Source of the DNA: Acidobacteriota bacterium
GTDB taxonomy: Bacteria; Acidobacteriota; Thermoanaerobaculia; Thermoanaerobaculales; Sulfomarinibacteraceae
Reading direction: 5' to 3'
Assembly (NCBI GenBank): GCA_024641545.1
Contig: JAHECW010000044.1
Coordinates: 1-32,935 of the forward strand
DNA: 32,935 bases
Shown piece by piece: positions 24,649-28,832 of this stretch (its first letter is position 1; the number at the start of each line of letters is the position of its first letter). The position numbers and the translations under genes were made by a program. Below the pieces are notes generated by a model. That model did no database searches. It was not told the DNA's origin and saw nothing but the letters and a program-made list of their open reading frames with translations.

Positions 24649-25758
24649 TCAGCCCTCCCCCAACGCCCGCCGATACGCTTCGACGGTTTTGTCCACCGTT
24701 CGCTCCCACGTCAACCGTTCGGCCCGACGACGGCCCGCCTCCACCATCCTTCGACGGAGAGGATCATCCACCAAGACCTGCTCCACCGCGCTCGCCACCT
24801 CGTTCACATCGAGGGGATTGACCAACCTCGCCGCATCTTCGCCGAACTCCCGCATGGCGCCCACGTTCGAGGTCACCACCGGCAGCCCTGCGCCCATCGC
24901 CTCGAGAATGGGCAGGCCGAACCCCTCGTAGAGCGAGATGTGCAACAGCACTGCGGCCACATGGTACAACGCCCTCAGGTGACTCTGGGGGACGCGGCCG
25001 AGAAAACGGACCCGATCGATCAATCCGAGACGTGCGGCCCGGGCGGCGAGCCGGCTCGACGGCTCGACACCGCCGACAAAGACGAGTTGGCCGGGGACCC
25101 GGTGCCGACGGACCGCCAGGTGGTAGGCACGCAGCACCACATCGAGGTTCTTGTGCGGTTTGTCGTTGGCCACCACGAGGACGAGGGGCGATTGGAGACC
25201 GTAAAACTCCTTGAGAGCCTCGACCTCGGAGGCGCTGGGCCGCACGGCGAGCTCGGGATCGACACCGTTGGGAATCACCATCAATCGACCCGGGTCGGCC
25301 GAAAAAAGCTTGATGAGATCGCGCCGCGAGGTCCGCGACACGGTGATCACGACCCGTGATCGCCTGAGCGCGGAGCGCAGGACGACCCGGAGATAGAACT
25401 GGGCCAGGCCGGCGCGTCCCTTGGGCGGATAAAACAGCTGGATGACATCGTGAACCGTGGTCACGATGGGCCGGGGCGACAGGGCGGGCACCACATAGTG
25501 CGGTATATGCACCACGTCCACCCGTTCGCGCCAGAGCATGGCCGGCATCTGGATGTGTTCCGCCACCGAGTACCCCTTCGCACCGGCGGTGAGCACCTTC
25601 GCCGAAGGCGCCAGCTCGCTGACCCGTCCCTCGTGGCCGGGGTGGGCAACCACCGTCAACTCCACATCGCGCCGATCCTCCATCCCCCTGAGAATGGAAG
25701 AGAGGTACGTTCCGATCCCGAAATCGGTCAGTTTGCGGGCGTCAACGGCCAATCGCAC
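24649..25758 (-). CDS. GT4 family glycosyltransferase
   Basis: 369 residues from a GTG start at 25758. N-terminal VRLAVDARKLTDFGIGTYL (1-19) holds the acceptor-side loop; TTVHDVIQLF (100-109), ANDKPHKNLDVVLRAY (197-212) and EGFGLPILEAMGAGLPVV (278-295, E278 and E286) complete the family pattern. The frame stays open to 26112, but the upstream part is antisense to another glycosyltransferase and has no domain match. TACAAT six nt before the GTG supports this start. First gene of the minus operon, divergent from the plus operon across 62 bp. Confidence 0.9.
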   Translation of the reverse strand: MRLAVDARKLTDFGIGTYLSSILRGMEDRRDVELTVVAHPGHEGRVSELAPSAKVLTAGAKGYSVAEHIQMPAMLWRERVDVVHIPHYVVPALSPRPIVTTVHDVIQLFYPPKGRAGLAQFYLRVVLRSALRRSRVVITVSRTSRRDLIKLFSADPGRLMVIPNGVDPELAVRPSASEVEALKEFYGLQSPLVLVVANDKPHKNLDVVLRAYHLAVRRHRVPGQLVFVGGVEPSSRLAARAARLGLIDRVRFLGRVPQSHLRALYHVAAVLLHISLYEGFGLPILEAMGAGLPVVTSNVGAMREFGEDAARLVNPLDVNEVASAVEQVLVDDPLRRRMVEAGRRRAERLTWERTVDKTVEAYRRALGEG

Positions 25759-25764
25759 ACCGTC

Positions 25765-25770
25765 ATTGTA
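25765..25770 (-). promoter_or_regulatory. -10-like TACAAT, leaderless GTG start
   Basis: On the minus strand TACAAT lies six nt before GTG 25758. This is the only leaderless-type start in the window that uses GTG. Confidence 0.5.
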
Positions 25771-25806: not shown

Positions 25807-25812
25807 TATACT
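25807..25812 (+). promoter_or_regulatory. -10-like TATACT upstream of a 17-codon ORF
   Basis: TATACT lies eight nt before an ATG at 25821 that opens a 17-codon ORF, so the transcript of the plus operon probably begins at that ORF and not at the glycosyltransferase start. Confidence 0.5.
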
Positions 25813-25820
25813 GATCTCAG

Positions 25821-25874
25821 ATGAGAGCCTCCAAGACCCGTCCACAACTCGAGACCCGGAAATCGAGCCCATGA
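25821..25874 (+). CDS. 17-residue leader ORF coupled to a glycosyltransferase
   Basis: The ORF reads MRASKTRPQLETRKSSP and ends in TGA that overlaps the next gene's ATG as ATGA (25871-25874). Its ATG sits eight nt after TATACT, as for leaderless starts elsewhere in the window. The glycosyltransferase ATG has no good Shine-Dalgarno site, so ribosomes finishing this ORF may restart on it. The peptide is basic and polar with no known domain. It may matter only as a coupling device, or be a leader peptide. Alternatively it is a non-translated coincidence. Confidence 0.4.
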   Translation: MRASKTRPQLETRKSSP

Positions 25875-26785
25875 CGGCGATCGTCATCCCGTCCCTCGGC
25901 GGCCCGCATTTGAAGAGCTGTCTCGATGCCGTGGCTGCTCTCGACCCGCCGCCGGGACGAATCGTGGTCGTGGTCTCCGGCGGCGCGACCCCGCCGGCCC
26001 GCCGAGCTTCGATCGACGTCCTCGCCACCGGGCGCCGACTCGGCTTCGCCGCCGCCGTCAACGCCGGCATCGACTCTCTCGGGAGCGCCATCGACCGGGT
26101 TGCCCTGGTCAACGACGATGCGGTTCCGGCGCCGGGGTGGCTGGGGCCCCTCGAAGCGGCGCTCGACGCCGACCCCGGTCTCGCAGCGGTTCAGGGGACC
26201 ATCACCGACGCCGCGGGAGCGGCCATCGACGGACGGGGCATCACCCTCGACGAGGTCGCGCTCCCGGTCCAGCTGGACCGCGGTTCCACGCCTGCGCCGG
26301 AACCCGACCGACCGAGACCGGTCATCGCCGTTTCCGGCACCGCGGCGCTCTTTCGAGCTCGGGCGCTGCGTCAAGCGGCCCTCGTCGACGGCGCCATCTT
26401 CGACCTCCGGTTCGGCAGCTATCACGAAGACCTCGATCTCGGTCTCAGGATGCGGCGCCTGGGTTGGAGCGCCGCCTGGGTCCCGGGCGCCTGGGCGAGC
26501 CACGTCGGTTCGGCGACCGGTGCCCGCATGGGCTGGCGCCACCCATGGTGGTTGCTGACCAACCGCTGGCGTGCCCTGGCCGGAAATCTCACGACCGCCG
26601 CCGTCGCGGCCGCCCTTCCAACCCTGCTCCGCGGCGAGCTGCGAGCGGTTCGGACGCTCGCCCGCACCAACCCGCGGGTCATGCCGGCGGCAGCAGCGGC
26701 GATGGCCTGCCTTCCCTGGATCGTGATCCGCTCGCTCGGGCGACCCAGCCCCGGTCCTCGACTCAGCGCCCTGCCGGAGGTTTGA
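25871..26785 (+). CDS. GT2 family glycosyltransferase
   Basis: 304 residues, GT-A fold, inverting type by family. It opens with the usual strand AIVIPSLGGPHLKSCLDAV, has LGFAAAVNAGID (57-68) for nucleotide binding, a DXD-like NDD (81-83) and YHEDLDLGLRMRRLGW (about 178-193) with the probable catalytic acidic residues. The pattern resembles rhamnosyltransferases such as WbbL, which would suit the rfbD gene nearby, but the sugar is inferred. A hydrophobic stretch near the C-terminus (about 255-290) could associate with the membrane. First full gene of the plus operon; two nt separate it from the next. Confidence 0.87.
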   Translation: MTAIVIPSLGGPHLKSCLDAVAALDPPPGRIVVVVSGGATPPARRASIDVLATGRRLGFAAAVNAGIDSLGSAIDRVALVNDDAVPAPGWLGPLEAALDADPGLAAVQGTITDAAGAAIDGRGITLDEVALPVQLDRGSTPAPEPDRPRPVIAVSGTAALFRARALRQAALVDGAIFDLRFGSYHEDLDLGLRMRRLGWSAAWVPGAWASHVGSATGARMGWRHPWWLLTNRWRALAGNLTTAAVAAALPTLLRGELRAVRTLARTNPRVMPAAAAAMACLPWIVIRSLGRPSPGPRLSALPEV

Positions 26786-26787
26786 CG

Positions 26788-27966
26788 ATGCGCGTTCTCT
26801 TCCTGACCGACGATCGACTGGGCCCCGCCATGGCAGGGTCGGCCCTGCGCGCCTGGGAACTGGCAAATGCGCTTGCCGGCGCGGGACACGAGGTACGGCT
26901 CACGGCGGATGGAGGGTCATCCAAACCGCACGACTCGCCCGTCGAGCTCATCGATGCGCCCGACTGGAGCTGGGCCCAGGCCGTGGTCTCACCGCCCTGG
27001 AGCCTCCATCTGCCGGCCTTCACCGGTCGCCATCTTCTGGTGATCGACGGCGCGACGCCGCTGCTCGCCGAGCTCGATGCCATGCCGACGACGCCCGAGA
27101 TTCGACGCCGCCGTCGCACCGCGGCGGCGCGGCTCCCCGTGGCGGCGGCCAGGGCGCATGCCGTGCTCGTGGCCGGCGCGGCGCAGCACGACTGGTGGCG
27201 GGCCGTGTTCCAACGCCGCCCCGCGGTGCCGATTCTCGAGGTCCCGTTCGGGATCCAGGAGCACGATCCACCGGAGGGTTCGGCCGAGGTCATCGGCGTC
27301 CCGGCGGACTGGTCGGTGGTGCTGTGGTGGGGTGGCGTCTGGCCGTGGCTCGACCTCGACACCCTGCTCGCCGCCCGCGCCCGGCTCGGCCGGGTTCCGG
27401 TGAGCATCGTGGTCCCCACCGCAACCAGACCGGGCGGTTCTCTCGCGCAGTTCACCGCGACCGACCTCAACCGGATGGCGGCCCGCTACGCACTGTCGGC
27501 GCCGGAGGTGGTGCCCCTCGAACACTGGGCGCCCTACGACGAGCGCTACCTGACCCTCAACCGGGCCGCGGTCATGGCCTTTCTCCACCAGGCGAGGCCC
27601 GAGGCGGAGCTTTCCTTCCGCACCCGCGCCATGGACGCCCTGTGGTCGGCAACACCCATGCTGCTGTCGTCTGGAGGCGAGGTCGCCCGGCTCGCGGACG
27701 CACTCGGCTGGGGCGAGGTGGTCGAGCCGGGCAACCCGGCGGCGGTCAGCGACGCCCTGAAGAGGCTGCTCCAACCCGAGGAGCACGATCGTCGCCGATC
27801 GGCGATTCTCGAACACCGCGACCACTGGCGGTGGTCGCGGGTCGCGCGTCCGTTGGTGGAGGCCCTTCCGACCCTCGAAACGATTCCCCGGGGCGCGCTC
27901 ACACCTTCGCTTCTCAGGGCGGCGACGACCCTCATCGGCCGCGGCGGACGGGGGCGCCGAGGGTGA
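26788..27966 (+). CDS. GT4-like glycosyltransferase
   Basis: 392 residues. The N-terminus MRVLFLTDDRLGPAMAGSALRAWELANALAGAGHEVRL has the layout of GT-B glycosyltransferases, and the C-terminal part (FRTRAMDALWSATPMLLSS, then GEVVEPGNPAAVSDALKRLL) matches the donor-side end of that fold. The canonical E-x7-E is not obvious, with E and R residues in a different setting, so it is a divergent member. GGAGG lies seven nt before the ATG. A longer frame open from 26137 is rejected because it is antisense-like extension through the previous gene. It overlaps the next gene as GTGA. Confidence 0.75.
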   Translation: MRVLFLTDDRLGPAMAGSALRAWELANALAGAGHEVRLTADGGSSKPHDSPVELIDAPDWSWAQAVVSPPWSLHLPAFTGRHLLVIDGATPLLAELDAMPTTPEIRRRRRTAAARLPVAAARAHAVLVAGAAQHDWWRAVFQRRPAVPILEVPFGIQEHDPPEGSAEVIGVPADWSVVLWWGGVWPWLDLDTLLAARARLGRVPVSIVVPTATRPGGSLAQFTATDLNRMAARYALSAPEVVPLEHWAPYDERYLTLNRAAVMAFLHQARPEAELSFRTRAMDALWSATPMLLSSGGEVARLADALGWGEVVEPGNPAAVSDALKRLLQPEEHDRRRSAILEHRDHWRWSRVARPLVEALPTLETIPRGALTPSLLRAATTLIGRGGRGRRG

Positions 27967-28832
27967 AGGCCGCCGCAGTTGTGGTTCGCTGGCGGGGCGG
28001 TGACGAGGTCGACCGGTGCCTCCGATCGCTCCTCGCGCAGACCGGGCGGCACCTCAGCCGGATCGTCCTGGTCGACTCGGGCTCGGGCGACGGCGGCGCC
28101 GAGCGCCTGGCGGCAGCCTTCCCCGAAATCGAGGTTCTCGCCCTTGCAGAGAACCGCTCATTCGCCCACGCCGCCAACACAGGCGCCGCCGCGACCACCG
28201 AGGAGCTGATCTTCCTGCTCAACCCCGACACCGAGCTCGAGGAGGCCGCCGCGGCCACCCTGGTCGAGGCGCTCGAGGAGCGACCGCGAACCGCCGGGGT
28301 GGCGCCGCTGCTTCTCAACCCGGACGGTTCGGGACAAGATCTCTGGCAGTTGCGTCGTCTTCCCACCGTCGCCCGTCTGGCCACGGGCCGGTCGGGCGCT
28401 CCGGCCTTTTCGACACCGCCGACGACCGCAACCGCCGTCGCCCAACCCGCGGCGGCGGCCTGGATGATCCGGCGCGAGGTGTGGCGGGCGCTCGCGGGTT
28501 TCGACGAGACCTTTGCCCCCGCGTGGTGGGAGGACGTCGATTTCTGCGCCCGGATGGCCTGCCGCCTGGGCACGCCGGATTTCCCGGCCGACCACGGTTT
28601 CGTGGTCGTGCCGCGGGCCCGGGTCCGACATCTCGGCGGATCGAGTCTCGGGGAGCTCGACCGAGCGGCGTTTCTCACCGCTTTCACCGGCAATCTCCTG
28701 CGCTATGCCGCCATCCATCACCCGAAGAACCTGCCGCTGATCCGCACCGGGCTACGATGGTCGCTCGCCGGGCGGGCACTCATCCGACCCCGGCACGCCG
28801 GGATCTATCTCGCGGTGCGACGCGGAATCTGA
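27963..28832 (+). CDS. GT2 family glycosyltransferase
   Basis: 289 residues from a GTG start that overlaps the previous stop (GTGA). VLVDSGSGDGGAERLA (35-50), ENRSFAHAANTGA (63-75), the DXD-like NPDTEL (87-92) and WWEDVDFCARM (about 195-205) are the standard GT2 signatures, again closest in style to rhamnosyltransferases. Last gene of the plus operon. No terminator was recognised after it. The sugar transferred is unknown. Confidence 0.87.
   Translation: MKAAAVVVRWRGGDEVDRCLRSLLAQTGRHLSRIVLVDSGSGDGGAERLAAAFPEIEVLALAENRSFAHAANTGAAATTEELIFLLNPDTELEEAAAATLVEALEERPRTAGVAPLLLNPDGSGQDLWQLRRLPTVARLATGRSGAPAFSTPPTTATAVAQPAAAAWMIRREVWRALAGFDETFAPAWWEDVDFCARMACRLGTPDFPADHGFVVVPRARVRHLGGSSLGELDRAAFLTAFTGNLLRYAAIHHPKNLPLIRTGLRWSLAGRALIRPRHAGIYLAVRRGI

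Follow-up and report, generated by a model that had tools for sequence, protein, structure and literature searches.

The family-2 glycosyltransferase gene at positions 25871-26785 of the window, i.e., the whole stretch of 32,935 nucleotides analyzed here, is preceded by a 17-codon open reading frame that is probably a functional, ordinary case of the RTGA-coupled leaderless mini-ORFs, found here in a new lineage. As contig C108, the window is part of a genome of 5.38 Mb (G000) that belongs with the Thermoanaerobaculia (Acidobacteriota). We favor, with moderate confidence and on comparative grounds, a reading in which ribosomes load in a leaderless manner on the ATG at 25821, stop at an ATGA and reinitiate on the glycosyltransferase ATG. 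RNA polymerase would start approximately 7-9 nt past a TATACT box, the 70S ribosome would load on the 5′-terminal AUG, and a disposable peptide of 17 residues would be made, the sequence of which would be irrelevant. Termination at the TGA (25872-25874) would then be followed by reinitiation on the overlapping AUG at 25871 without a Shine-Dalgarno (SD) site, and the mini-ORF would be a device delivering ribosomes to the glycosyltransferase.

The arrangement given in the initial annotation is found exactly in the sequence. On the plus strand, TATACT (25807-25812), assigned as -10 box of the glycosyltransferase promoter, is followed by eight nucleotides (GATCTCAG), the ATG at 25821 and 17 codons (MRASKTRPQLETRKSSP), and the presumably leaderless frame (25821-25874) closes with a TGA overlapping the glycosyltransferase start as ATGA (25871-25874). 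The glycosyltransferase itself has 304 aa, matches the models PF13641/PF13632/PF00535, and its frame has no further ATG, GTG or TTG start upstream of 25871. Judged in part from synteny, it presumably forms an operon with two genes on the same strand, one of ~392 aa (26788-27966), which starts 3 nt past the end of the glycosyltransferase gene, and one of ~283 aa (27981-28832). The mini-ORF lies in the 112-nt gap between the glycosyltransferase and a divergent GT4-type glycosyltransferase gene on the minus strand (24649-25758, assigned by Pfam). According to a -10/start scan, this neighbor is presumably leaderless as well, with the -10-like TACAAT (25765-25770, minus strand) 6 nt before its GTG start at 25758. 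Among 16 orthologous loci, the scan revealed a GTG or ATG start 6-7 nt past TACAAT or TAGAAT in five (L001, L002, L003, L006, and L009).

Leaderless mRNAs are likely to exist in this genome, since TATANT located 6-9 nt before an ATG outnumbers the reversed control about twofold (52 vs. 24) and mostly opens real genes: 36 of the 51 classified matches (18/30 and 18/21) lead into frames with a minimum of 100 aa, among them what we take to be thymidylate kinase and other recognizable genes. In a 421-kb sample of the genome, which comprises 337 called genes, -10-like boxes matching in five or all six positions lie at distances of 6, 7, 8, and 9 nt from candidate starts in 8, 6, 5, and 4 cases, respectively, compared to 0-4 at other distances, and 23 of the 337 genes have a strong -10 box 6-9 nt before the start. 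An in-silico survey puts the mean share of leaderless genes in Acidobacteria at 13.3% (PMC3160421). The spacing between 25807 and 25821 is therefore meaningful and more than chance, and a -10 box 8 nt upstream of the ATG, at a spacing that is enriched before gene starts, serves as a proxy for an RTG at the 5′ end; the ATG at 25821 would presumably be the 5′ end of the transcript or lie no more than one or two bases from it. As no -35 element is evident by eye at this promoter, and a single strong hexamer at one locus tells little, the transcript might also start elsewhere or from a second promoter, with TATACT and the ATG at 25821 not being a functional start. However, this is improbable, because each of the 13 orthologous leaders with the promoter directly 5′ of the gene has TATACT or TATAAT at a distance of 6-9 nt from an ATG, and because the -10/RTG scan of the three genomes of the genus, described below, revealed no further site that would make the glycosyltransferase start leaderless. 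As a separate observation, TATANT-N6-9-GTG is rarer than its reversed control in the sister genome G001 (19 and 22 vs. 29 and 33), unlike in G000 and G002.

The glycosyltransferase start has no SD site, as already stated in the initial annotation, since its pairing to the anti-SD tail, for which a sequence was assumed, is no better than random level. The duplex energy is -3.5 kcal/mol, which is equaled or exceeded by 42% of 2000 random positions, and the corresponding values are -5.0 (30%) and -1.7 (78%) in the two sister genomes G001 and G002; the median over 326 gene starts is -5.6.

In these two other genomes of the genus, which carry the glycosyltransferase with 74 and 65% identity and in the same divergent gene pair, both the short frame and its overlap are kept. 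The leader of G001 reads TATACT-N9-ATG, 17 codons (MTTINSDPPFITRDSGR) and ATGA, and that of G002 TATACT-N8-ATG, 17 codons (MVQPPSPTRRVARPLPW) and GTGA. In all three members the mini-ORF ATG is located 50 nt before the glycosyltransferase start, and no member has lost the frame next to an intact glycosyltransferase gene. The peptides share no sequence, and the identity of the spacers is only 55, 34, and 28%, with 28-34% in the comparisons to G002. As the spacer identity is low and the distance is nevertheless constant, the peptide is free to change, whereas the ATG, the length and the overlap are kept; by a rough estimate, three adjacent sites would survive by luck at 34% identity with a chance of ~4%. 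The short frame and the overlap by themselves are not remarkable, as it is the relatives that give them weight. Of the 205 genes whose upstream region is free, 27 have some ATG mini-ORF that overlaps the start, and the open spacer frame proves little, because shuffled spacers of the three genomes stay open with a chance of 0.71, 0.56, and 0.90. Likewise, a constant 50-nt spacing together with a Thr codon (ACN) next to the start codon is enough to produce the NTGA stop. Moreover, the three genus members have one common ancestor and, together with the fourth case in G019 described below, the mini-ORF therefore stands for one or two events and not for four.

Among 20 genomes of the family, 16 have an ortholog of the glycosyltransferase (E ≤ 1e-45); two named relatives that were found by protein search are MAGs of the Thermoanaerobaculia/Thermoanaerobaculales. 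The start is by its geometry leaderless in nine of the orthologs, NTGA-coupled to a mini-ORF in four and NTGA-coupled to a long gene in three, and an independent SD-led leader was found in none of the 16. In eight genomes (G015, G006, G017, G012, G008, G013, G016, and G003) an ATG 6-7 nt past TATACT or TATAAT is the in-frame start, with an additional ATG 2 nt after the -10 box in G003, and in G004 the leaderless ATG is in frame with the glycosyltransferase and adds an extension of ~19 residues. Most other genera thus lack the short frame because the same leaderless ATG serves there as the glycosyltransferase start. The mini-ORFs ending in NTGA comprise 17 codons in G000, G001, and G002 and 15 codons in G019, where the geometry is leaderless, the stop is an ATGA and the glycosyltransferase start shows moderate SD-like pairing (-6.5). 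Since G019 groups by genus with the directly leaderless genomes, the mini-ORF may have arisen twice, the resolution of the glycosyltransferase tree being insufficient to tell one origin from two. In G007, G009, and G010, which represent three genera, the glycosyltransferase is NTGA-coupled to a long upstream gene, which in G007 starts itself with TATACT-N9-ATG and ends with a GTGA on the glycosyltransferase. In the three genera, this gene of ~1,150 codons (L038:6173-9697 in G007) separates the divergent promoter from the glycosyltransferase. It has relatives in 17 of the 20 family genomes, mostly elsewhere in the genome, with none in G000 and those of G001 and G002 at other loci, and no peptide similarity to the mini-ORF was seen. 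GT2-like genes at 14 loci outside the family, in other families and orders, were looked at by eye only and are probably not orthologous.

That the same ATG is an in-frame start in 9 of 16 orthologs also fits with the assumption that the ATG at 25821 is the relic of an old leaderless glycosyltransferase start, to which a leader of ~50 nt was added, so that ribosomes would enter directly and SD-independently at 25871 and translation of the mini-ORF would be noise or would not occur at all. The frame is likely to be open by chance and the leaders of G000 and G001 are not unusually folded, which both agree with such a relic. However, none of the three genus members has lost the ATG, nor has G019, despite the 28-34% spacer identity in the G002 comparisons, neither an SD site nor an A/U-rich leader has taken its place, and three other genera couple the glycosyltransferase via NTGA to a long gene; we therefore regard a relic as unlikely, although as the most serious alternative to reinitiation. 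A single N-terminally extended protein, made from the leaderless ATG via frameshift or a non-standard start, would resemble the in-frame extension of G004. This is very improbable, since in every one of the three genus members the two starts, 50 nt apart, are in different frames, no slippery sequence is visible by eye and N-terminal extensions are not conserved.

The series of starts further allows a broader, more tentative reading, in which the fixed leaderless promoter with its AUG might be an interchangeable dock for loading ribosomes, the glycosyltransferase never having gained an SD-led leader. What would be exchanged behind this AUG is the glycosyltransferase itself, an in-frame extension, a mini-ORF with NTGA, or the gene of ~1,150 codons with NTGA, and the 17-codon ORF may be either an inserted spacer that preserved the coupling or the collapsed remnant of an upstream gene.

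The initial annotation had also suggested that Arg and Lys codons of the mini-ORF might sense translation. Five of 17 codons encode Arg or Lys in the window, as would suit an attenuator that responds to translation or charged tRNA, but only two and three of 17 do so in the two sisters, and the three genomes have no stretch of codons for one sensed amino acid in common. As in addition the peptides are unrelated, the leader matches no Rfam family, no fold is common to all three leaders and the product is a sugar transferase, this idea is not supported and an attenuator is the least probable of the alternatives. Compared to shuffled sequences, the folding of the leader has z values of 0.56 in G000, 0.17 in G001, and -3.11 in G002. 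Unfolding of a hidden start by translation of the mini-ORF is therefore less likely for the leaders of G000 and G001, which do not fold better than their shuffled versions, whereas the value of G002 makes this possible there.

Leaderless small ORFs coupled by RTGA are known from mycobacteria, where some of them retain the architecture although the peptide varies (Shell et al., 2015; PMC4633059), and were described there on the basis of mapped transcript starts and ribosome profiling, with an enrichment of coupling (23 of 220 vs. 32 of 1000 random cases; PMC4633059). The mini-ORF resembles those ORFs, for which a 5′-terminal RTG, 5-50 codons, a TGA within RTGA and an unconserved peptide are described (Fig. 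6B of PMC4633059): its 17 codons lie within 5-50 amino acids, its TGA is part of an RTGA at the downstream start in the window as well as in G001, G002, and G019, and its architecture is constant in the genus while the peptide diverges. It differs from the mycobacterial cases, as far as these are presented in Shell et al. (2015; PMC4633059), in the phylum, in the comparative nature of the evidence, and in that a family-wide enrichment is not established. In E. coli, mRNAs with a 5′-uAUG likewise have a 5′-terminal AUG that opens a short ORF before the gene (Beck et al., 2016; PMC4965119), but the genes described there have a downstream SD site, which the glycosyltransferase lacks. The stop/start overlap ATGA is shared with overlapping gene pairs undergoing termination-reinitiation; however, the upstream partner is here a leaderless frame of 17 codons instead of a protein gene. 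The idea that a short uORF delivers ribosomes to the next gene is stated in a review of 2025 (PMC12548453), and a literature search in open-access titles and the openings of abstracts gave no report of a leaderless coupled mini-ORF for Acidobacteriota. From the proposal of the initial annotation, a leaderless promoter driving the gene by termination-reinitiation, the geometry, the lack of an SD site and the conservation in the genus hold, and the transcript start, the translation of the mini-ORF and the reinitiation are what we infer. Leaderless mini-ORF coupling as described in mycobacteria would thereby be carried over to an uncultured lineage of Acidobacteriota, and the family offers a natural series with a single promoter and the same gene, where termination-reinitiation and direct leaderless initiation would substitute for one another and which makes the ribosome-delivery role of mini-ORFs testable by reporters.

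Family-wide, TATACT-N6-9-ATG followed by RTGA occurs 94 and 105 times vs. 16 and 14 times for the reversed pattern, and with a control spacing of 13-16 nt between TATACT and ATG there are 51 and 29 matches. Mini-ORFs with an in-frame RTGA make up 11 of 92 and 11 of 76 typed matches at leaderless spacing and 5 of 41 and 10 of 28 at the control spacing. The family-wide count and, in view of the shuffles, the openness of the spacers were rejected as general proof; leaderless spacing brings no clear excess of coupled mini-ORFs over the control, and we claim no statistically enriched class for the family. Leaving out G014:C133, where the contig ends (one of 22 in-frame matches), and the duplicate control G009:C158, we judged 17 of 21 candidates at leaderless spacing to be followed by a plausible gene vs. 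6-8 of 14 controls. This comparison is suggestive of an enrichment at best, because GT2 (four times), GAPDH (three times) and an ABC gene (twice) recur among the 17. The GAPDH leaders carry a GGAGG-type SD site in all 18 family genomes examined and only four of them have an RTGA-coupled leaderless mini-ORF, which starts with ATG in G010, G014, and G011 and with GTG in G009 (frame assigned by eye); the remaining leaders examined have the SD site and no in-frame leaderless RTG. The mini-ORF is thus optional at GAPDH, where the in-frame leaderless RTG comes and goes beside a constant SD site, and these leaders are closer to the E. coli 5′-uAUG case as described (PMC4965119) than the glycosyltransferase leader is.

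The four GAPDH mini-ORFs (L208, L209, L211, and L212 in G010, G014, G011, and G009, respectively) have 8-9 codons, run across the SD site and end in ATGA. At L124 and L182 (G013 and G008), a leaderless mini-ORF of 14 codons with similar peptides (MDRKEAAADHFEAG and MDRREAVAEYFGVG) is joined via ATGA to an ABC ATPase gene, for which no SD site is evident. Further candidates were discarded. The 17-mer at L088, L118, and L119, which is conserved in all three genus members, resembles a leaderless mini-ORF but falls in the end of another gene's frame, presumably that of a BamA-like outer-membrane protein, upstream of an SD-led gene. The polygalacturonase-like match at L077 has a better SD-led start further downstream, and GGAGG precedes the GTG start of the thiolase match at L120. 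The thiolase gene starts at L120 (G000:C7) and L066 (G000:C112) are near-identical, each with a leaderless frame of 22 codons overlapping the SD-led GTG, and these duplicates are possibly strain variants in the assembly.
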